Positions 3,618-64,000 of a DNA stretch of 64,000 nucleotides are shown here, piece after piece. Source of the stretch: Tridacna crocea (lineage: Eukaryota; Mollusca; Bivalvia; Cardiida; Cardiidae); assembly GCA_943736015.1 (NCBI GenBank), contig OX031069.1, positions 43,496,728 through 43,560,727 on the forward strand, read 5' to 3'. Below the pieces are notes generated by a model. That model was not told where the DNA came from. It made no database searches and saw only the letters and a program-made list of their open reading frames with translations. A program made the translations under genes and the position numbers. Numbering within the stretch: the first letter of the stretch is position 1; each line of letters starts with the position of its first letter.

Positions 3618-4272
3618 GGTAGCAGTACACGGTTGTCGGCTAAACTCGTCTCGGTCCGCCGTATGCCGACCTGAACTTCCTCAAACAAAGGTCTATTTAG
3701 TCAGCCTGAAATTATAAGGAGCACTTAAATGCAACAGCACAATCCTAATTCTTTAGATTTTATCAATAAATCATGTTCAATTTGTGAAATATTGATATCA
3801 ATGATCAATATAAGCAAGTGACATGGTCGGAAAAAAAATGAAAAAAATTGCCATTTTAGCCTATATTCCAAAATTCACAAAATCCAAACCCAGGAAGCTA
3901 GCCTGAAAATGCCAAGCTGAATTGAAACTCAAAACAACACATAATCTGGGGATGAAATCCAAAATAGCACGTTACCATGCCGTTTTTCCGCAATCTTTCG
4001 TGCCCTGACCCTACCCTTGTTTTCTCCGCTAAAAACAGCCGCTTGCTCCATGACCCCTCACTTTCGCATTTGGGGTCAAAACTATAGAACAAAGAAGGAA
4101 AGGTCATGACCCCCTGTTTCACATACAAAACAAATGCTTCTTTTCCTTAATCTAACACAATTCATGGGTGTAATAACTACTCTTCTTATCAAAATTGCAT
4201 TAAAAACCTACCTTACTCACTTATTTCTATTTTTGACCCTGGCCAATTCGAAGCAAACTGTTTACTGGTGCC
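3618..4272 (+). repeat. 655-bp direct repeat, copy 2
   Basis: Identical partner of 1848-2502, offset by 1770 bp. TTAA immediately precedes the left end; the right end is followed by ATTACC. The outer flanks of the pair share only ATT. The pair could be two insertions of one TIR element, a tandem duplication, or an LTR-like arrangement around a 1115-bp spacer. The absence of TG...CA ends and of a purine tract argues against the last. Confidence 0.85.
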
Positions 4273-9906: not shown

Positions 9907-49366
<39,460 letters not shown>

Positions 49367-49627: not shown

Positions 49628-49851
49628 TTGACTCTTTACTACACAACAAAACTCTGAACTTTAACAAATTGAAGGCATTTGCAAATGAAGAATTACAAGT
49701 TGTCAAAATGGCAATCTGTCTGGGCTAGAAAACATTGTGGGTAATGGAGAAAGTGCTGGTTACGAACATTTTCTCCCTTTTCCTACAATGTTTTTGTAGG
49801 GCTGTCTAAGTCTTTGTTATTAAAAGTCGGAATTGAGTGGTAAAGGGTTAA
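49628..49851 (-). mobile_element. TTAA-MITE in the EFTUD2 3' UTR region
   Basis: Near-complete copy between the stop codon and the candidate poly(A) signals; if the distal signal is used, the hairpin would be part of the mature mRNA. Confidence 0.85.
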
Positions 49852-49858
49852 GATTTTA

Positions 49859-50104
49859 ATTAAACTACAGAAATGTAAGACCCTTTTTGCCATATTTAAG
49901 ATTCAGAAACTAAGGCAAGTTCTGATTGATTAGACCAAATCAGAACTTTTGTTACTTTTCAAATTTAGAAAATCCTTTAGAATAGGCCTAAGAATGTTCT
50001 CAAAAGCAGATTGTGAATATGGACCCTGTTCCTGAAAAAGTGTTGGATTGTTTCACCAGTCTATCATTCATTTTGTATATATCGGCACAATCTCTATCAA
50101 TAAA
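49859..50104 (+). promoter_or_regulatory. Candidate EFTUD2 poly(A) signals
   Basis: ATTAAA at 49859-49864 and AATAAA at 50099-50104, about 0.5 and 0.7 kb after the stop. The latter is followed by a T-rich/GT stretch ('TTGGGTTTTTTTTATA'), so it is the better candidate. Confidence 0.45.
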
Positions 50105-50866: not shown

Positions 50867-53800
50867 TCAAGGTTTCTCCTCTCCTGGCTCTTCTTTAGCT
50901 TGTAAGGTTTCTGCTTCTTTGTACTCCTGTATCAGAGAATCCATGGCTCCTGAAATAAGAACAGCATAGAAATTTAAAACTTCTTACCAGATGGTAATAT
51001 TGAACTCTTTACCAGACGACAAATCTATAGACTGGTCCAAATTAAAAGCATTTGCAGATGACAAAGTAAATGTGACTGAAAATTCGAAACTTGATTTAGG
51101 ATTGGTAGAAAACATTGTGGGAAAAGGAGAAAATGCTGGTTACCAGCATTTTCTCCTTTTCCCACAATGTTTTCAAAAGGCTTCTACATCAGGGTCGTCT
51201 AAAGTCGTCGTGTGGTAAAGGTTTAAAGCATATTTAACTCTTTACCACACAATCCCGACTTTTAACGACCCTGAGATAGAACCCTTTTGAAAACATTGTG
51301 GGAAAAGGAGAAAATGCTGGTAAACAGCATTTTCTCCTTTTCTCACAAAGTTTTCTACCCAGCTGGTAACAATTTTCAATTTTTGAGTTACGTTTATTTT
51401 GTTGTCTGCAAGTGCTTTAAATTTGGACCAGTCCAAAATTTTGTTGTTTGGTAAAGAGTTAAAGCAGGTAACAAATGTGATTCATATGATGAATGAATGA
51501 AATAAAGAGTAAAACAAAGGTGAAAAGAACAAAAAACGAACTCACTCTTACTATCTGAGAAGGCCATGTCCCTTGTGGTTTTAAAGAATATGTTACTGTT
51601 TGGCTGCTGTTTGTAAACACTCTACAATGAAGAGGAAAAAAATGATAACTGAGCCCTGCTCTGGCATTAGGGGGGGTTATTACATCTCCGTAATTCATCA
51701 TACCAAAGAACGCATCATGTAATCATGAATCCATGAAATACGTTTTGTCCAACAACCAACGGATTCAGACCTTTGCCATACTAAAAATTGATCAATAGAG
51801 AAAAGTTCAGGCTGACTTGGGTCAATACTTTTAGCAGATGCATTAAGCCCCTGTTTCACAAAGCAAGGTTCAGATTATATTTAGACCACAGTTTTGATAA
51901 GTTGACAAATCATCTCTCAGTAATTTGTCTGTGTATACCACAAGCACAAAGCTTTGTCAATCCTTGTGGTCCAAGTCGGACAGACAAAGAGTCATAGGGT
52001 CTATCAAATACAAACAACGCTACTCCCAGTCTATGCCAAAATTAGAAGCCCTGGGCCTTGTGGTTTCAGAGAAGATCACTTTTAATTTTTTTCCCAGTTT
52101 TGTTACCATGGTAACCAGAGTTTTTGAAGGAATCAAATTCTTTCAAGAAATTCCGAAGAGGACCATGGCAGGATAATTTCTGTAAAGTTTAATAAAATTT
52201 GGATGAGTAGTTTCAGACAATAAGATGTTTGAAATAAAACTTAACACATGCAGGCACACACATAAGGATGAACAAACAGAAGCATGACAGATAACGGGCT
52301 ATGACATAAGCCCGCTGGCCTTTGGCCAGTGTAGCCAAAAACATTTGAAAATATAATTATCAGTTTAACTTTCGTAAAATTATAGGATTTGAATTTACTT
52401 GCTACCCTTATCGATATTTTTTTTTTTTGTCAAATAAGCATATATACTTAATAAATAATCTTCTTTCTATCGTGGTATATCGTTCAATAAACCACAGTTG
52501 TGAGTTATGAGGCACAATAAATAATCCACGAGGGCGATAGCCCGAGTGGGTTATTCATTGTGCCTCATAACTCGCAACGTGGTTTATTGAACGATATACC
52601 ACAATAGAAAGAAGATTATTTCAATTCTAACTTGGCCAATTCTTAATGAAAGGAAAACAAGTTCAAACTAAGAGTAAAAAGGCGGATGAAGATTATGTTC
52701 CATTGAATAACTCACTCATTGAATGACGTCACTCTACATGGATTGTCGCAGATTTTACCACGTTTTCCTTGCACTGTGTTTATAGAGCCAAAGTCACATG
52801 TCATGTTAGAATTATAAATAAATTAACAGGCATGAAATAATGCTTGATCAACAAGAAAATACAGAAACCCATGACACAACAAAATGTTCCTTTTAACGGT
52901 CACCCAGTCAGAGTCATTTCAGACCATCTCTTCAGCTTTGTATTGATGGGTCACAATGGAATGCATTTGCAGATGACATAATTATAGAATGTGATTGGAA
53001 AATTTGAAATATTTTTTTAGAAGGGTAGAAAACAATGTGGGAAAGGGAGAAAATGCTGGTTACCAGCATTTTTTCCTTTTACCACAATGTTTTTAAAAGG
53101 CTTCTCTCTCAGGGTTGTTAAAAGTCAGATTGTGTGGTAAAGAGCAAGTTTCCACAGATATCTTGATACATGTATAACAGACTTTTGTGCAGCAAATCAT
53201 TAATATTTATTGCTTTACCTCTAGTCGAGAATCATTATTGTTATACCCTCTGACTTGACATCTTAACCCCAGATTTACAGCTCAGGGGGTAAGTGTACCC
53301 CTGAAATAAAAAGCTAGTGAGAACACTGTGTAATTTCAATACCATATTTTTTGTCAAAATATTTGTGGGGAAAAATGTAATTCTACAGTCTGGATCCTAT
53401 ACTAGTATCCGACTACATATTCTTGCAGTCTGATCTTGATCAATTCCAACAAAATCCAAGTTCAATGCTTAACTGGTTGAGCAGACACTTTTTGAGGTCC
53501 CCTCCTTGGAGCTCTGGCAAAAGGGGACTTAATGCATCTCCATGACGTGTGATGTCAAGCAAGCCAACACATAAGTGTGGATCCATTTTGTACAGCCATG
53601 TTTTTTCACAACAACCGACTTAGTCAGTAGGTACACCGGTCCTCTCATATACAGAAAATTGACAGATGGCAAAAACTTTTGGCCCAGGTAAGCCTGTGTG
53701 AACTGTGCAAGGTAACCTGGGTCAATACTTTTCGCAAATGCATTTGGCCCCCTTTTCCCAGAGCATGGCTCAAATTATTACTTACAGCTCCTTTACGCAA

Positions 53801-55213
53801 AGTTTTCAGCTCCTCTTGCAACAGCTTCTGTTCTTGAATCTATTAGATGGAGAAAATAATGTATATGAATCAAATTGGTGTTACTGTACTGAAGATGTTT
53901 GAAAGGTAGTGATGATGGGTAGCAGTGCTGTCAGGCAGTTGGGATGGGTCAGTGTTCAGAGCGATGGTGTGGTTTGAGGTCCGTGGTTCAAGTCTCATAC
54001 GGCAAATACTTTGTCTCTTTGAAAACTATTGTACTGTTACTTACGAGAGGTTGTAGTGACAATGAGACCAGGGTAAAAGTGGTAATGGTATGCAGTCAAT
54101 GTGTACCATGACTATTATCATACCATTTTGTTTATGATCACTTTGTACCAAGCGGTAGCGACGATAAATAAATGGAATTCTAACATGAAATGCGCTATAA
54201 ACACAGTGCAAGGAAAACGTGGTAAAATCTGCGACAATCCATGTAGTGTGACGTCATTCAATAAGTGAGTTATTCAATGGAACATAATCTTCATCCGCAT
54301 TTTTACTCGTTTGAACTTGTTTTCATTTCACTAAGAATTGGCCATGTTAGAATCGAAATAATCTTCTTTCTATCGTGGTATATCGTTCAATAAACCATGT
54401 TGTGAGTTATGCGGCGCAATGAATAACCCATTCGGGCTATCGCCCTCGTGGATTATTTATTGCGCCACATAACTCACAACTGTGGTTTATTGAACAATAT
54501 ACCACGATAGAAAGAAGATTATTTCTTAAATAACCAACCAACCAAATCAGTAATTGTGATGTCGAGCACTTCTGGTGGAGCAGTTTATAGAGTTACCTCG
54601 CTTGATGGGGGATTTCCCTATTCACGAAAGTCAAATATCTTTTCTTTAAAAAGGAATGCGCTCAAATACTTTTGTTAGTTACTTTTAGAAAAATCTTTAG
54701 TATTATGTGATGTCCATAAATATCTTAAAAACGAAGAAAATAATAGTAATAAGTAATACGAAAATACGTTTCCTGGCTCTTCCTGTGACGTCAGCGAATG
54801 GCCTCCAAGACAAATCTAAATTTTCTGATAAAGTTGTAAAACATGACGGATATCTCCGGTTGAAAGGTGTCTACTGAGGTATCGTGTTGTCTATCGCTAG
54901 GCTAAAGGATATTATGATCAATGTTTGTTTCGTGGGTGATTTTGGTTGGGAAAGGCTGTCGGGTGCTAGCGCCAGTAATCGAGACGTTGCATTCCTTGTG
55001 TTTATATTATATAGGGGAGATTTTTTTTTCATATTTTATCATTTATTTTGGTTATAGAATGTCAAATTCCTGTGCCCCTACCCACGAAAAAACTTCTACA
55101 TAAATTATCAAATTTAAGGCAGCAATCACATATGGACGGACCTTGAAATAAGATCAATGACCGTCTTCTCACTAGCCACCCAAAACGCGGCCAATACCTA
55201 CTTTGCGGTCCAT
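50867..55213 (-). CDS. ASDURF: ASDURF-like prefoldin-type PAQosome subunit
   Basis: Small prefoldin-like coiled-coil protein; in humans ASDURF joins URI1, UXT, PDRG1, PFDN2 and PFDN6 in the PAQosome co-chaperone. Minus-strand exons: 55213-55202, 53839-53786, 51621-51546, 50949-50867; 225 nt, 74 residues plus TGA. Residues 5-10 (IQEQKL) and 'VYKQQPNSNIFF' align with the human protein as I recall it (IKEQKI; VYRQQQNSNIFF), followed by 'SKRAMDSLIQEYKEAE' against human 'SKNILDELKKEYQEIE'. Heptad-like helices flank the conserved NSNIFF turn. Exons 2-4 have clean splice sites and matching phases. Exon 1 supplies only M-D-R-K (ACAATGG context, donor AAA|GTAGGT, first in-frame ATG) and is less sure. 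Human ASDURF is 96 residues with a longer N-terminus. No ASNSD1 sequence is in the window. Confidence 0.85.
50999..51462. mobile_element. Two opposed TTAA-MITEs in ASDURF intron 3
   Basis: - copy 50999-51225 (complete) and + copy 51234-51462 (complete), eight bases apart, together forming most of the intron between ASDURF exons 3 and 4. Confidence 0.9.
51640..52458. other. ASDURF intron 2 sequence without a gene
   Basis: A CAGCCTGC-type scrap near 51800-51850 and a fragment related to the 167-bp-unit element ('CCCAGTTTTGTTACCATGGTAACC'). No exon signal. Confidence 0.4.
52459..52811. repeat. Foldback element D, copy 2 (reverse)
   Basis: 'AATCTTCTTTCTATCGTGG' inverted as 'CCACAATAGAAAGAAGATTA' around 'GAGTTATGAGGCAC...GTGCCTCATAACTC'. 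TGACGTCA at 52724-52731. Confidence 0.8.
52958..53145 (-). mobile_element. TTAA-MITE, B end truncated
   Basis: Begins inside the B arm ('ATTTGCAGATGACATAATTA') and keeps the full core and A arm. Confidence 0.82.
53930..54172 (+). repeat. tRNA-derived SINE, third type
   Basis: B box-like 'CGTGGTTCAAGTCTC' at about 53983 and a 3' end 'GGTAGCGACGATAAATAAATGG', shared in style with 27073-27330. Confidence 0.55.
54175..54528. repeat. Foldback element D, copy 3
   Basis: Same orientation as 12165-12545; TGACGTCA at 54249-54256; hairpin 'TTGTGAGTTATGCGG...' against 'CACATAACTCACAA'. Confidence 0.8.
54738..55077. repeat. One-armed copy of the 8301-8768 foldback
   Basis: 'ATAGTAATAAGTAATACGAAA' through 'GGTTATAGAATGTCAAATTCC'; the left inverted arm is absent. 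TGACGTCA at 54785-54792. Confidence 0.8.
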
Positions 55214-55330
55214 TGTATATAATGATAAATGGCGGCTTTTCCGACAAGGGAAGTAACTGTGTGAAAATCTTGGAAATGCTTATTCTGCGGAGCCTTAATC
55301 TGTATCGCGACAACGTTCTTGATATCGATA
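55214..55330 (-). promoter_or_regulatory. Candidate ASDURF promoter and 5' UTR
   Basis: Just upstream of the proposed ATG the minus strand reads GCCGCCATTTATC, resembling a YY1 site (antisense of ATGGCGGC), and AGTTACTTCCCTTGTCGG. Both are typical of housekeeping mRNA 5' ends. No TATA box. The sequence is more GC-rich than its surroundings and free of the window's repeats. Confidence 0.4.
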
Positions 55331-55678
55331 TATGTTAGCACTATAGAGCACCAAGCACAACTTTGTCCACTTTAAGCATTGTAGATCACCATCAGACTGC
55401 ATTTCGCGGACACAAAACACACTTGGTGATCATTGTTGAAGCCCGGCTTCCGCCTGTCTACGTGAATGTTTTACAATATAGGCCTATTAAGGAGAGTCTG
55501 CAGAATATGATTCAGTGCATGCAATTTAATTTGGGACAAGGTGCATGGGCGAAACATAGCCATTAAGAAATGCTTTGCGACATTTTTTAGGTGATGTACA
55601 ATAGGCCTACAAGGCAACATTCGAACATGCCGCAATTTAAAGATAAAATCTCACTGTGCTCCAAATCTTGAAACTACA
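55331..55678. other. Upstream flank of ASDURF, no feature
   Basis: A 67-codon plus-strand frame here has no splice or motif support. Confidence 0.4.
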
Positions 55679-56424
55679 AGTCTTTACCAATCAACAAAAT
55701 TTTAGGTTTGTCCAGATCGAAAGTGTTTGCAGACGACAAAATAAAAGTGACTGAAAATTTGGAATTTGTTTCGTGAAGGGTAGAAAACATTGTGGGAAAA
55801 GGAGAAAATGCTAGTTACCAGCATTTTCTCCTTTTCTAACAATGTTTTCTAAAGGCTTCTTTCTTGGGATCGCCAAAAGTAGGGATTGTGTGGTAATGGG
55901 TTAAAGGTGGGTATTTAGAAATTTCACATCACACCAAATTAAAAAATAAATATGTCAATGAAATTTATATGAAAAAACAGTTCAAATCATCAGTAATTAA
56001 GAATCACAAAATTACAAAAAAAAAAAAACGTTTTGGTGGTATTCCCTATTTTTAGATTTCCCGCCAAAATAAAAAAAGCATTGTGGGAATGTTAAGTAAC
56101 TCGCACGTGACTAATGACTATTAAATTCCATAGCATAACAAACATGTAGTTATTTTCCATAAAGTCTAGAACTGTGGACGGTATCTTTGAAGCTTCGTCT
56201 GTATATTTTTGGTATGTAAATGAGCGAGTTGCTCATATAAAAATAGACAGTGTTTCCCTTCAGTGTCGACCTGGGCTGTAGTAAATCTGCAATTTATCTA
56301 GTTGTCGGATGGTTTTCGACTACTGGGGTTTAATGAATGAAAATTATAAGTATTTGGGAGTATAGGGATAATTTTTTTGTATTTTTGTAAAATTTTCGTC
56401 CCAATATCTGAAGGGCCACTTTAA
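55679..56424. mobile_element. TTAA-MITE abutting a 548-bp-family element
   Basis: - MITE 55679-55904 and 548-family copy 3, 55901-56424 (TTAAAGGTGGG...CCACTTTAA). The two unrelated elements share TTAA 55901-55904. Confidence 0.88.
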
Positions 56425-56439
56425 ATGATAGATCTGTCG

Positions 56440-56573
56440 TGGAAAGGGTACAAAACACTATAACAAAAAAGAGAAAATGTTGTTTACCAGCATATTCTTC
56501 TTTTCAACCAATGTTTTCAACTGCCGTCTTCAACAGAGTTGTTAATAACACTGGGTTGTGTGATAATGGATTA
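56440..56573 (-). mobile_element. Decayed TTAA-MITE
   Basis: Worn core ('GAGAAAATGTTGTTTACCAGCA') and A end 'TAATGGATTAA'; B arm lost where the 548-family element ends. Confidence 0.65.
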
Positions 56574-56741
56574 AGTTATTTATATCGTTTTGAAGCCATT
56601 GTTGGTAAAGCAGCAAGGAGGAGGGATGTTGAGTGTTGAGATTATTTACCAGCAACTTCCTTCAAAAGCGACAGATTTGTTAAATCCTACCCAGTTGACT
56701 CATTTTAAATAATATCATCAAAAGTCGTTAACCTTTGTGGT

Positions 56742-57061
56742 CGAGCCTCGGTACCTCAGTCGGTAGCGTGCAGGACTTGAGAGCAAGGGGTCGTGGGTTC
56801 AATCCTTTGGTCGGCCAATTTCTTTTCTAGGATTGATGATAGTCATTGCAACAAGATTCATTCCTCTCCCACCGCCGACCATTGTCTCGACGATGGGTTA
56901 TGTAGGAAAGCAGCTAGTGGTTTGGAAAGAAGATTGTGCGGAGTACTGGTAAAAAGAGCGTAGAAAAGTGGACTGACCGCAACGATATAACTGAAATAAT
57001 GTTGAAAACGGCGTTAAATACTATATAATCAATCAATCAAGCAATCAATCAATCAATCAAT
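56742..57061 (+). repeat. tRNA-derived SINE, full-length with ATCA tail
   Basis: A box-like 'TACCTCAGTCGGTAGCGTG' (about 56752), B box-like 'GTGGGTTCAATCC' (56793-56805), body 'GATTGATGATAGTCATTGC' through 'GGAAAGAAGATTGTGCGGAG', and a tail of seven to eight ATCA units. The best-preserved member of the family seen as fragments at 23160-23885, 31262-31520, 36540-36760, 58490-58690 and 58960-59090. Confidence 0.8.
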
Positions 57062-57145
57062 CCACATATAAGCTGTGAACACCATAGACAAACACAAGGA
57101 CCAACGTGCATGGGGTAAATCAAAATCAGACTACAAATATCGTGC

Positions 57146-57660
57146 TTTATTTCATGCTTTCCGGTAGGATATCGAGAAATAGCAGTGAAAAATATTTTTC
57201 GATATTACACGGGTACGACCAGTGAAAATACCGATTTTCATGTTCTTGTTGCCAAAGTAAATTGCGCTTGCCTAACAACCAGATGAAACACATGACGTCA
57301 TTTACCTTGCATTTCTCGCACTTGTCGTAATATTGTAATGCGTTGCTGTGCGAGAGGGGTACGCCGCGGGGAATAACGGAAAAGAACTGTACTGGATTTT
57401 GATAAAGCTCCTCCCAGAAAGGGTTAAATGCATGAAATAAATAGAATATTTGTTTTTTTCGGTGAAAGATCGAAATTTATTTCATCGAGTGAACACCATC
57501 GGTAATATTTTCACGAATAGCTGCTTTTTTCGGTGAAAGATCGAAATTTATTTCATCGAGTGAACACCATTGGTAATATTTTCAGCTACTCGTGTAAAAT
57601 ATTACCGATGGTGTTCACTCGTTGAAATAAATTTCGATCATTCACCGAAAAAAACAAAGA
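57146..57660. repeat. Foldback element G, copy 1
   Basis: 'CATGCTTTCCGGTAGGATAT' start. The 'GGTGAAAGATCGAAATTTATT' to 'GTGAACACCATCGG' arm is present twice in direct repeat and once inverted (57595-57650). TGACGTCA at 57293-57300. Second copy at 62559-62972. Confidence 0.8.
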
Positions 57661-57819
57661 TCCTCTATGTCTTATCTTTGATCTATATACTACTCAACAT
57701 TTGTTAGGGATCACCATATAAGATTCACTCTGGCTCTATATGTGGCATGTATCATGTATGGTTTTATAATATGTTACATTGCTACTCTGATTAATAAAAT
57801 CACCAGTGGAAAAGGGTCT

Positions 57820-58040
57820 TTAACCCTTTACCTCATAATGCCGACTGTTACAGACACAGAGAAAGAAGCCTTTGGAAAACATTGTTGGAAAAGGAGAAAA
57901 TGCTGGATACCAGCATTTTCTCCTTTTCCATCAATGTTTTCTATCCTATGACAGACAGCACTTTGTGTGTTGCATTTGGTTTTTAGTCAGCAAATGCTTT
58001 CAACGTAGACAATTCCAGAATTTTATATTGTGGTAAACAG
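57820..58040 (+). mobile_element. TTAA palindromic MITE, + copy
   Basis: A arm and core intact ('ATGCTGGATACCAGCATT' centre); B end eroded to 'GTGGTAAACAGTTT'. Confidence 0.87.
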
Positions 58041-58770
58041 TTTCTGCAAAACTGCTGCAACACATACACCCATACTGAAATACGCAAATGATCCCTATCA
58101 AACGGTGAGTAGTATATATTTCATCCATCCGCTCGTTCGCTGGACCTTTGAGCGGCAGAAAATGGACCAATATCAAAACGTTTCGGCTCGGGACAGTCTG
58201 GGCTGAATACGCGGAATGCACAGGGTGTCCTGAGTCGATACGTTTTTCAAAATGCATTAAGACCTCGTTTCACAGAACATAGCTCATATGTGCATACATG
58301 TATTTAGCGCAGGTATAGACTTAAAAGTATTAATATTGATCGCTATTGAATCAGTCAGAATACAATTCGAATCCATTATACCCCACTTTAACACTATTGT
58401 ATTGGTGTTTACGTTTCATATATTGATGCTTTTCAAATCTGAATGATTAAACGATCTTTTTATTTTCACGGGTGCTAAAATACAAAATCGGCTCAGTCCT
58501 CTCTCTCCGTTGGTCATTATTTGGATAATGGTTATGTAGGAAAAGAGCCAGTGGCTTTTGAAGACTATATTGTCCGAAGTAAACGTTAAATATAATCCGG
58601 GAAAGCATGGGTAGGTGCACTGGCCGCCACGTTCGTTTCAAATTTGGACATTCTTGAGGATTAGGCAAATAATACTCTAAAGAACGGTTGGTGAATGGGA
58701 ACATGGTCTGTATTCACCGACCATTCTTATGAACATTCTTAGTCTTATTCTTCAGAATTTTGTCAATGTA

Positions 58771-58834
58771 AAAGTAACAGAACTTCTGATTGGCTAAACC
58801 ATATGGTTTAGCCAATCAGAAGTTCTGTTACTTT
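58771..58834. repeat. Perfect 64-bp palindrome
   Basis: Two 32-base arms meet at CCATATGG with no mismatch (AAAGTAACAGAACTTCTGAT...). A looser relative, 'TTCTGATTGATTAGACCAAATC', occurs near 49921. Confidence 0.9.
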
Positions 58835-59324
58835 AACTGCAGTCAGAAAATCTTAACTCTCGAGCTTGAAACCTAGGGGGCGCTGTTTTGAAACCTTGCT
58901 CCGTAAAATTCTTTACAATAACTATAATTGATCGATTGCCAATATTAATTTATTTCTCACCATTCATCATTTTTCATGGATATCTATGTGGGAAAGCAGC
59001 TAGCGGCTTTGAAAGAATGTTGTGCAAGGTACTGGCTTTGGATATTCCAGGAAAGCTTAGCCGCCTCAAAATAATTTCCGAAAAAAAAAATGTTTGAAAC
59101 CAGCAAAAACACCAAACAAACGAACAAGCGAAAGTCTAAATTTTGAAATGTTTCCTGTTAGGGCATGAATTACTCATAGGAAATATCTGTCAATTTTTCT
59201 ATCATCGTTCCCTCCTAAAACACCTACTTTCAAATTGGCTACAAAATGAAAAATAAAATGAACAGCTGTGTTTTATTGTCCCTATCTTTTTTTGTAACAT
59301 GATTTTTACTGTCCACAAAATAAA

Positions 59325-59553
59325 TTAAGCCTTTACCACACATTCCCGACTTTTAACAACCCTAAGGTTGAGGTCTTTTGAAAACATTGTAGGAAAATGA
59401 GAAAATGCTGGTAACCAGCATTTTCTCCTTTTCCCACAATGTGTTCTACCCTATTAAACACAAATTTCCTCATTTGAGTTTCTTTTAAATTGCCATCTGT
59501 AACTGATCTAAATATGGAGAAGTCTATTTTTTTCTTGTGTGGTAAAGGTTTAA
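59325..59553 (+). mobile_element. TTAA palindromic MITE, + copy
   Basis: Complete A arm and core; B arm diverged ('TGCCATCTGTAACTGATC'). Downstream of the coiled-coil gene. Confidence 0.88.
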
Positions 59554-59948
59554 ATAAAACTTTCAAGTCGACAGTTAAAAACATTAGATGAAGCGTATGT
59601 TTTCTAGAAAAATATCTCTCTATCGGACTGTGTAGATCCAAGATCAGACTGCACGTTCTGTGCAGTCTGATCTTGATCTATACTGTCCGCAAAAGGTCAG
59701 TTAGTCGCACAAAGCAGCTTTTAACTGGTGGGCTTTACGAAATACGTCGTCACCAGAGTCCGCCATATCAAGTACAACCTGTATATTTCAAACTCGATCA
59801 TGACCTGTCAAATATCTTTTTCTTGTTCTCACCAGAGTCACGTGATCACAGACACTGCTAATACAACAATAAAATTCTCCATGCAGAAAACAATATTATA
59901 TCGAACATACATCTACGACAGTGAAGTTGTACTTTTCGAACAAATATG

Positions 59949-62900
59949 TCACCATTCAGAATCCATCAGATCAGGTATAAATTGTCTACTTTGTTCTTGT
60001 CCAGGACCTAACAAACTTTTCATTGGCTTTTCTATTGGGGTCACGTGACCCGGTTCCTCCGAAGGCAGCCCTGTAAGGAACAGTGATACTGCGTTCTTGT
60101 TTTTCGACAAACCGAGGTACTCCTCATTTAGATTAACTATTCTATCTGGCGCCTTGATTGAAGATCCTATAAACTCGGCTGTGATATTGTGTTTAGCTTC
60201 AACCAGTGGTAGACGGTCTTTTATCTGCATCTGTTCCTTGACAAATTTCTTGTCCTGTGAAATAGGTATCAGTGCAGCTTGGATGGCTTTCTGTTCTTTC
60301 TTTGCCTTTTCGATAAAAGACTCGATTTCTTCACAACGATCCTGTACATCATTTGTTGTGTGGATAATGTCTGCCTTGACTTCCAGTTCTATAGTCATAT
60401 CTGACTCAAGTAACGACAAATGGTACTCCAAGCCGGCTAGTTGTCTCTCAAGAGCAAACCTTTGAAGCTTGTTCCTGTCATACAGAGGTTTTAGCTGCCT
60501 GAAATCTGTCTTGTTTTCATTTTTGACGGCTAGATGTAGTTGTTCACACAATTTATTCCTTTCTTTGAGAAAAACGTCCATTTGCTCTTTAAGTATTTCA
60601 CGACGTCTGCGTAAATCAAAAATGTCTTGGCTTAAGTTATTAGATCTCTCCTCTCGCTCTAGAAATTTGTTCAGCACATCAGATTGGGATTCTAATTCTC
60701 TCTCTTTTTGTTGAATTTCCTTTGACAGAGAACTCAGTCTTTTGTTCATTTGTTCCTCCAATGATGTCAATTTATCCAACTTTGCATTAAGGTCCTTGGT
60801 CTTCTCGTCATCTTTTTCCAGCCATCTTCTAGCAAGCCAAGCTTGCTTCTGGAATTTCATCAGTATATCTGGTACTAGTCTCATCAGCTTTAATGTCCCA
60901 GCGTCCAAAATTTTAAGATGAAACACAACTCTTTCACTATCCTGACTGAGGAGCTCATTATCCAAGCTGTTTTCTTTGTCTATCAAGTGATCGATGCGAC
61001 CTTTTAAGTGGCACATTCGTTTTGCAATTCTCTGGATATCAGACGTGTCGTAGAGTCTTTTAATATCTTTATATTCTCGTCCAAGTAATACGAGAGCATG
61101 TTTCGTTATTGCATTACGACGAGCATTTTGTGTCTCCTCGAAGTCCGCACCAGAATTTGACCTTGACACTGATCGAGAAAGCGTTCTCGCACTGTGGTAA
61201 CTATGGCCAAGATCTGAGTCACCAAGAAACGAAGTCAGACCGCTGAAACCACTGTATCCGCTATCTATGCTTTTAAACGATACAATACTTGGTGTCGATA
61301 TCCCAGAGTCAGTTGAATCTTCTCGATCGGGCTTATCATATCCGATATGGTAGAAATAGCGAAACAGAGGCTGATAAATCCGATCAGCGAAGTTTGTCCG
61401 AAGTTCCTTCAAATAGTCCAGATACTCAAAGAACCAAGTAAAGTACTTCACCAGTTTCTCTTCCTCTGGAGTGGCCTTGACCTTCCTATGCCGATATTTA
61501 CATCTCAAGGTCCTATTCAGATCTTTAAAACATTTTCTCAGGTGTGCAATGGTTTTTACTTTTCTGACATCGACCACGGTTTTCTTGGTCAGGTCAACAA
61601 ACATTCGATGTAGCATGTCGATGTTAAACTGCTCGTAGCACGAGTATACTTTGTCTTCGAAAGCACGAATCTGCTCGTAGAGAAAATGGCTTCGATATTT
61701 CTCTTCCATTCGCAGGAGACGTAACTACAAAAGAAACCAGTTTTTTTTTAAAGATAGATTGTGTAATACTAGTTATATGGTTCGATTTGCTTAGACATTA
61801 TCAATAACTTTAAGACAAAAGATAGTCTCCTATCAAATCCTTTTGCTATGGTTTAATTCAATCCTTTACCACACAAATTCAGCTTTTAACACCACTGTGA
61901 AAAGAGACTTTAGAAAACATTGTGGGAAAAGGAGAAAATGCTGGTAACCAGCATTTTCTCCTTTTCACACAATGTTTTCTACCTTTCACAAAACAAGTTT
62001 CAAATTTTCAATCACTTTTGTTTTTCGTCTACAAATGCTTTCGATTTGGATAAGCCTAAAATATTGTCGTTTGGTAATGAGTTGAATAAGTGCCGCGAGG
62101 AATCGATTAACTAAAAAAAGAAAAACATGTATACAGTCAGACATATAAGTTAAGCATCATCCAAAAATATTTAGTCATACTTTTTTTAATGGATAACCTT
62201 TTATTTGGTATATTTTCAAGCTATGCATGGATCCACTAGACAAGTAACAGGCTGATTTATGAGCCAAATGAAAGGATAGCTACGAAAAAACTTTCCGAAA
62301 CCCAGAAATGGCAAATTGTGGGCATTATAGTAATGCAGGTCTAAGCACATGGGGTATTATTGCTGGTCAGTTTTTGGTGATGCTTAACCTATGTCTGACT
62401 GTATATATTGGTGTAATTGGACCAGCACAAGTCCTCAGTATAAACATGTCCATGTTATCTTTTTATTTGTTATCGCATATTTCTGCCCATTCGCCACTAA
62501 AACGAAGAAGCAGGTAAAAACATCAGCTTGTACGGCTACTTTGAAAAGAATCATTTATTACATGCTTTCCGGTAGGATATAGAGAAAAAGCAGTGAAAAT
62601 AATTTTCGATATTCTACGGGCAAGGCCATTGAAAATACCTATTTTTATATTCTAGTTATCTAGGAAAATTGCACGTGACCCATAATCAGATGGAAATATG
62701 ACGTTAATTACCTAAACATTCCTCCCGTTTGACGTATAATATTGTAATGCCATGGGGGGTTTGGTAACAAAACTGTACTAGATTTTGATGAAGCTCCACC
62801 CAGAAAGGGTAAAAAGCATGAAATGAATAGAATATTTGTCTTTTTCGCTGAGATGAATTAACGAAAGTTCGAAAATTATTTCACCGAGTGAACACCATCG

Positions 62901-63201
62901 GTAAAATATTACCGATGTGTTCACTCGATGAAATAAATTTCGATTTTTCAACGAAGAAAAGAAAACATCCTCTGTATCGATTGGATATCAATAAAGAAAA
63001 TTAAACAAATATTAGGTTAGAAATATTTACTCCCTAGCAGATAACAAAATTTTAGACATGTCCAAATTGAAGTCATCTCGTTCAGTGTCGTAAGAAATGC
63101 GTTTTATAGTATTTTATTGCGCATAAAGATGTAAATATTAGGTTTATACCTGGAGTTGTTCGCTCCTAAAGCTCTCGGTGCCACGCCTTCTCCCATCCTC
63201 A
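59949..63201 (-). CDS. Unrecognised coiled-coil protein, last two exons
   Basis: Minus-strand exons 63201-63150 (52 nt) and 61724-59949 (1776 nt with stop), joined in phase (CTCCAG|gtataa; TTTTGTAG|TTACG). Residue numbers count from the ATG at 61709, which is internal: the upstream exon adds 'EDGRRRGTESFRSEQLQLRL' in frame and begins mid-codon, so the start lies beyond the window or in an unseen exon. An N-terminal alpha/beta-like region (1-125) contains an aromatic-rich 'YFTWFFEYLDYL' (89-100). A Ser-rich linker (131-190, 'DSTDSGISTPS', 'SIDSGYSGFS') follows, then long heptad-rich helices (about 200-500) and a polar tail ending PDLMDSEW. No catalytic motif, signal peptide or membrane segment. 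Likely cytoplasmic or cytoskeletal; function unknown. Coding status is strong: 586 uninterrupted codons. Confidence 0.88.
61857..62084 (+). mobile_element. TTAA palindromic MITE, + copy (coiled-coil gene intron)
   Basis: Near-complete, in the intron between the two coiled-coil exons; ends GGTAATGAGTTGAA. Confidence 0.9.
62559..62972. repeat. Foldback element G, copy 2
   Basis: Collinear with 57146-57660 but with single arms: 'CGAGTGAACACCATCGG' inverted as 'CCGATGTGTTCACTCG'. Confidence 0.78.
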
Positions 63202-63309
63202 CTGCAATAAAAGAACAAATGACACGCTGAAGTCAACTTAAATATCCCTGAGTCCTTTTTTCTTTTTAAGCTGACTCTAAATAATTGAGACATCTCTGTG
63301 GAAAGGGGA

Positions 63310-63538
63310 TTAACTCTATACCGAACGACAAAGTTTTAGACTTGTCCCAATTGAAAACATTTGCAGACGACAAAATAAATGTGACTCAAAAACTAAAACT
63401 TGACTTTGAAAGAGTAGAAAACATTGTGGGAAAAGAAGAAAATGCTGGTTACCAGCATTTTCGTCTTTTTCCAAAATGTTTTCAGAAGGCTTCTTCCCCT
63501 TGGTCATAAAAACCAGGGATCGTTTGGTAAAGGGTTAA
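63310..63538 (-). mobile_element. TTAA palindromic MITE, - copy
   Basis: Complete, 229 bp, TTAACTCTATACC...AAAGGGTTAA. A B-arm scrap of another copy lies at 63028-63078. Confidence 0.92.
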
Positions 63539-63552
63539 AGGTTGTGTCTATT

Positions 63553-63755
63553 GTCGTGAGGTAGAGCGTCGGCCTCATAACCTCAAGTTCGATACCCGAA
63601 CGTGTGTCAACTTTGGGATTTTTCATTGGCCCACACATTCGGCGCGAGTACTGGTGTAGTTCCCAGGAAGCAGAATAGAGAGAAATTATCATAAGTTGTA
63701 AGAACTTGTTTCTCAATCGATGTAAAATAAATATATTTACTAAACTAAACTAAAG
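63553..63755 (+). repeat. tRNA-derived SINE with ACTAA tail
   Basis: A box-like 'GTGAGGTAGAGCGTCGG', B box-like 'CAAGTTCGATACCCG', tail 'TAAACTAAACTAAA'. Confidence 0.7.
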
Positions 63756-63910
63756 GGTTAATGCATCTGCGGAAAGTATCGACCCTGGGCCGAAACTTTT
63801 CGCTATCTGTCAATTTTATGTTTGTCCAAGTACCAGTCTACATTATGACTCGGTCGATTGTCTGGACAAATTGGATTTTATAGATCCATGAACATGTGTT
63901 AGATATCATG

Positions 63911-64000
63911 CATCTCAGGAACTCAGGAGGGGGTGATGGTATGCTAAAATCATTATTTCTCTTCAAAACCCTATGTTGTGGGTACTCATTAGAATCGTCT
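63911..64000. repeat. Foldback element E, copy 3, cut by the window end
   Basis: 'GGGGGTGATGG...CTATGTTGTGGGTACTCATT' matches the left half of 31521-31702. Confidence 0.75.

Follow-up and report, generated by a model that had tools for sequence, protein, structure and literature searches.

A very likely stand-alone, spliced ASDURF gene tail to tail with EFTUD2 in Tridacna crocea

In a 64,000-nt stretch of Tridacna crocea DNA (contig OX031069.1; hereafter the window), ASDURF very likely has a gene of its own. Our reading, which we hold with high confidence, is a conserved, stand-alone, spliced ASDURF gene on the minus strand, which lies tail to tail with EFTUD2 and would encode a prefoldin-like subunit of the PAQosome. 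ASDURF is often cited as a functional protein that is translated from an upstream ORF (uORF). The human protein is made from the leader of the ASNSD1 mRNA, according to a passage in PMC9776223.

The predicted coding sequence consists of four minus-strand exons (Table 1), which add up to 225 nt in a single frame and give a protein of 74 residues. The introns are 1362, 2164 and 596 nt long, and all three begin with GT and end with AG. In-frame stops are met past exon 1 into the intron, before exon 2 and also 5' of the ATG. Because of the stops around exon 1 and exon 2, the ASDURF protein would need splicing for its production, and because of those upstream of the ATG, the frame of exon 1 could be extended further up only with the help of another exon. 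The predicted exons 2 to 4 rest on the joint family match together with their phase, whereas exon 1 with its 12 nt is the least certain part of the gene model. The N-terminus of the 74-residue protein is accordingly given as provisional.

Exon 1 was assessed by a screen of the region from 60500 to 53841 for stretches that run from an ATG to a donor, have a donor score above 3 and reach exon 2 in phase 0. The screen covered single first coding exons that join exon 2 directly. It returned 28 candidates, among which 55213-55202 ranks sixth by donor score. The ATG of this candidate has an A at -3 and a G at +4. Two of the four residues that it contributes lie inside the family match, and the last one is aligned with the lysine before IKEQK in human ASDURF. 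The rival candidate 58419-58387 likewise ends in lysine. A promoter argument for this region was dropped. The promoter-like motif GCCGCCAT at 55229-55236 is the sole copy in the window, but at least one copy is present in 30 of 100 shuffles. Near 55.1 kb the CpG ratio reaches 0.97, compared with 0.50 on average over the window, but higher values occur in many other places.

Table 1. Coordinates of the predicted ASDURF gene and of the neighbouring EFTUD2, counted from the first letter of the window.
Feature	Positions	Strand	Length	Basis
ASDURF exon 1, coding part (MDRK, donor gtaggt)	55202..55213	minus	12 nt	sixth of 28 in ATG/donor screen; provisional
ASDURF exon 2 (IQEQKLLQEELKTLRKGA)	53786..53839	minus	54 nt	inside PF21975 match
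ASDURF exon 3 (core VYKQQPNSNIFF)	51546..51621	minus	76 nt	PF21975; tblastn E 1.9e-4 for the exon alone
ASDURF exon 4 with stop codon	50867..50949	minus	83 nt including stop	PF21975 match
AATAAA, putative poly(A) signal of ASDURF, 347 nt beyond its stop codon	50515..50520	minus		predicted
Last coding exon of convergent EFTUD2, stop at 49364-49366	49270..49366	plus		peptide recognised as EFTUD2
Open stretch with C-terminal EFTUD2 coding exon	45687..46118	plus		E 6.2e-52; Pfam EFG_C

The family identity of the protein was determined with Pfam. Residues 3-64 match profile positions 29-90 of 96 of PF21975 (ASNSD1 upstream ORF protein) with an E of 1.7e-14, and the score of 54.1 bits lies above the curated cut-off of 27, which makes the protein a member of the ASDURF family. 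The human ASDURF sequence that was used for comparison matches PF21975 from position 1 to 96 with 213.7 bits, and because of this end-to-end match we take it to be sound. The protein of the window is identical to it in 30 of 63 aligned residues, without gaps. With the human query the real protein reaches 51.1 bits (E 7.1e-15), whereas the best of 1000 residue shuffles reaches 10.6 bits (E 0.036). The core VY-x-QQ-x-NSNIFF is present, as VYKQQPNSNIFF is aligned with human VYRQQQNSNIFF. When the window was searched by tblastn with the same query, exon 3 alone gave the best match, exon 2 alone reached E 0.42, which is level with chance matches, and exon 4 is absent from the matches listed at E 10 or better.

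The stretch that would correspond to the human N-terminus (profile positions 1-28) is missing, and the match starts at position 29. We do not regard this extension as defining for ASDURF, and exon 1 is uncertain. Searches in other collections gave no further assignment. The 74-residue protein has no NCBIfam match at E 1, the solved structures gave one chance match to it (E 0.89), and no Rfam match was found anywhere in the window at gathering scores. The ASDURF peptide pattern is fitted by 25 stretches in viral contigs and by 590 stretches in bacterial and archaeal genomes, none of them confirmed by tblastn; an animal gene is not expected there. At the level of sequence, the observation of ASDURF at this locus is confirmed, well above chance.

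On the side of its stop codon ASDURF faces EFTUD2. Both genes lie tail to tail with 1500 nt between the stop codons. The open stretch on the plus strand matches the 116 kDa U5 snRNP component, from which the identity of the gene is taken, and the peptide of the exon that carries the stop is what we take to be the end of EFTUD2. The closeness of ASDURF and EFTUD2 to their human counterparts points to an animal host. Between the two stops, the minus strand has one AATAAA (the candidate signal of Table 1) and one ATTAAA (1007 nt after the ASDURF stop), and the plus strand has AATAAA at 50099 and 50211 and ATTAAA at 49819 and 49859.

On the other side, upstream of ASDURF, a 591-residue open stretch on the minus strand (59949-61724) probably codes, as an exon, for part of a coiled-coil protein. 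No Pfam family reaches its cut-off on this stretch, an SMC-like match in NCBIfam is weak and stays far under the cut-off, and the matches to solved structures are at chance level. Six AATAAA lie between this stretch and ASDURF.

To search for ASNSD1 on the strand of ASDURF, 1-50866 was translated in all three minus-strand frames, with an X in place of each stop, and scanned with Pfam. In these frames no Asn_synthase match was found at E 0.1 or better, with short exons missable, and nothing exceeded its Pfam cut-off. The sole match at E 0.1 or better was Baculo_E66, with 15.9 bits vs a cut-off of 26.5. The six frames of about 54999-64000 gave no Pfam match; of the remainder, the scan covered one of the three minus-strand frames of 50867-54998 and a minority of the plus-strand frames of 1-54998. 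The motif SGGxD[S/T], the PP-loop of asparagine synthetases, is absent from the six frames of the window, apart from copies interrupted by an intron, which this search would not see. As a positive control, the C-terminal domain of EFTUD2 was found in its 2000-residue strip, whereas the 25-residue exon 3 of ASDURF was missed in its own strip. Therefore, an ASNSD1 domain would be caught by the scan if it lay in a long exon, but might escape if it were divided among short ones. Within these limits, no ASNSD1 ORF was found downstream on the ASDURF strand of the window.

The first-pass annotation had described four minus-strand exons that join in phase to 74 residues, an ASDURF with its hallmark core, and a convergent EFTUD2 3' end after the coding sequence. 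All of this is borne out: the exons are open with GT-AG at all introns, PF21975 is matched above its cut-off and the EFTUD2 stop lies at 49366. Its statement that no room is left for ASNSD1 downstream on the same transcript, unless splicing skips past EFTUD2, holds in so far as no ASNSD1 domain was detected on the minus strand within the window, but short exons could escape the scan.

Three other explanations have to be weighed against a stand-alone gene. The best of them, which we nevertheless regard as improbable, is that the locus holds a second, stand-alone copy, while an ASNSD1 gene elsewhere in the genome keeps an ASDURF uORF of its own. The three introns speak against a simple retrocopy, which we reject for this reason. 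A duplicate made at the DNA level is possible, and there is no direct evidence of another copy.

Still less probable is that the exons form the leader of an ASNSD1 transcript, with the main ORF beyond EFTUD2, outside the window, and connected via a very long intron. Although the window ends short of the proposed main ORF and human ASDURF does come from an ASNSD1 leader (passage in PMC9776223), this would require splicing over some 50 kb and past the antisense EFTUD2 gene, in spite of a candidate poly(A) signal that is met already 347 nt past the ASDURF stop. In addition, no ASNSD1 domain was found in the three minus-strand frames of 1-50866, with the blind spot of the scan for short exons. Finally, an unexpressed relic or a chance assembly is very unlikely: exons 2 and 4 alone are not distinct from chance and the gene is known here from its sequence, but one reading frame stays open through all four exons, each intron has GT-AG borders, the family score is double the cut-off, and chance assembly is rejected as none of the 1000 residue shuffles came anywhere near the real score.

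For the preferred reading, a stand-alone ASDURF gene, the comparison with known ASDURF genes is informative. Human ASDURF belongs to the same family by the curated cut-off and shares the 30 identical residues and the NSNIFF core with the protein of the window. In difference to human, the protein of the window has 26 fewer residues before the aligned part, a number that depends on exon 1, and no ASNSD1 ORF was found downstream at its locus. A review table in PMC9776223 gives for human ASDURF the span chr2 189663925-189666058, about 2.1 kb; the length entered beside it, 40 aa, is at odds with the 96-position Pfam model, and the span is used with caution. A span of this size suggests splicing of the human uORF as well, and the multi-exon structure alone is probably no difference from human ASDURF.

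In Arabidopsis, ASDURF has the locus AT1G49245 and was found together with UXT by AP-MS (passage in PMC10893143). The same locus was already among the prefoldin genes in 2016 (PMC4792155, in part) and is described as structurally similar to UXT in a passage of a 2025 review (PMC12699172). The likeness to the window consists in a gene with a locus number of its own, as described in these papers. Because of this locus number we read the plant ASDURF as stand-alone; ASNSD1 is not discussed in those passages. The beta subunits of prefoldin (PFDN1, 2, 4 and 6) are a third point of comparison, as the human ASDURF model aligns with them according to a passage in PMC11009110. Against Prefoldin_2 (PF01920) the human sequence scores 18.6 bits, below the cut-off of 27.6, and the protein of the window differs in that PF01920 did not match it at E 1 or better.

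From these data the following picture can be drawn for the stand-alone gene. The minus strand would be transcribed from a start of ASDURF's own, probably near 55.2 kb, at least four exons would be spliced, and the transcript would end tail to tail with EFTUD2. The protein would most likely fold as a helical hairpin of the prefoldin-beta type and, by analogy with human, would most likely be one of the subunits that make up the URI1/UXT prefoldin-like module of the PAQosome chaperone. In human, ASDURF is found in the same fractions as the prefoldin-like complex and the PAQosome on co-elution, and the model predicted for it can be aligned with beta-prefoldins (PMC11009110, in part); human evidence for an assembly with URI1, UXT, PDRG1, PFDN2 and PFDN6 is given in passages of PMC9406135 and PMC11009110. 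In human, mutation of the uORF start increased the activity of an ASNSD1 leader reporter 2.27-fold (passage in PMC8894207). The uORF coupling between ASDURF and ASNSD1 that is known in human would be absent here, because the two apparently have no common transcript at this locus.

The protein is best read as a new member of the prefoldin-like ASDURF family, in a stand-alone arrangement that is already implied for plants. The first-pass annotation had suggested that the uORF arrangement is not universal. This is supported by the stand-alone locus, which is very likely here, but it is less new than proposed, since it is already implied by Arabidopsis AT1G49245. Likewise, the multi-exon nature of the gene agrees with four exons in phase, but it loses weight as a special feature since the human uORF, with its span of about 2.1 kb, is probably spliced as well. 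The literature passages on ASDURF consulted here report no invertebrate ASDURF gene; the original report (Cloutier 2020) is outside their scope and may treat invertebrates, and we do not claim that an animal stand-alone ASDURF is unpublished.

With some reserve we favour the view that the stand-alone ASDURF is ancestral and common to plants and this animal lineage, and that the human ASDURF-ASNSD1 bicistron is a later product of two independent genes that were brought under a shared promoter. If this is true, a textbook functional uORF would be a former independent gene, and the joining could be dated. A stand-alone animal gene together with the Arabidopsis locus would show that ASDURF can fulfil its role uncoupled from ASNSD1, and it would make it possible to ask when and why the two genes were joined. 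Such a gene also cautions against deducing a conserved uORF arrangement from the conservation of the uORF protein.

The introns of ASDURF also contain repeats. A palindromic repeat with the core GAAAATGCTGGTAACCAGCATTTTCTC occurs with up to 3 mismatches at 41 places from 11488 to 63449, where shuffles expect none, and looks like a MITE-type element. Copies near ASDURF are located at 53060 (intron 2), 51321 and 51140 (intron 3) and 50562 (past the stop). A longer element is present in two inverted copies, at 52445-52788 in intron 2 and at 54192-54532 in intron 1. Their complementarity is 93% over a stretch of 224 nt and 97% over one of 117 nt, and either copy has a 43-nt inverted repeat of its own. 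Far from ASDURF, about 590 nt are duplicated with 100% identity at 1880-2470 and 3650-4240, 1770 nt apart, which is either a recent duplication or an assembly artefact.
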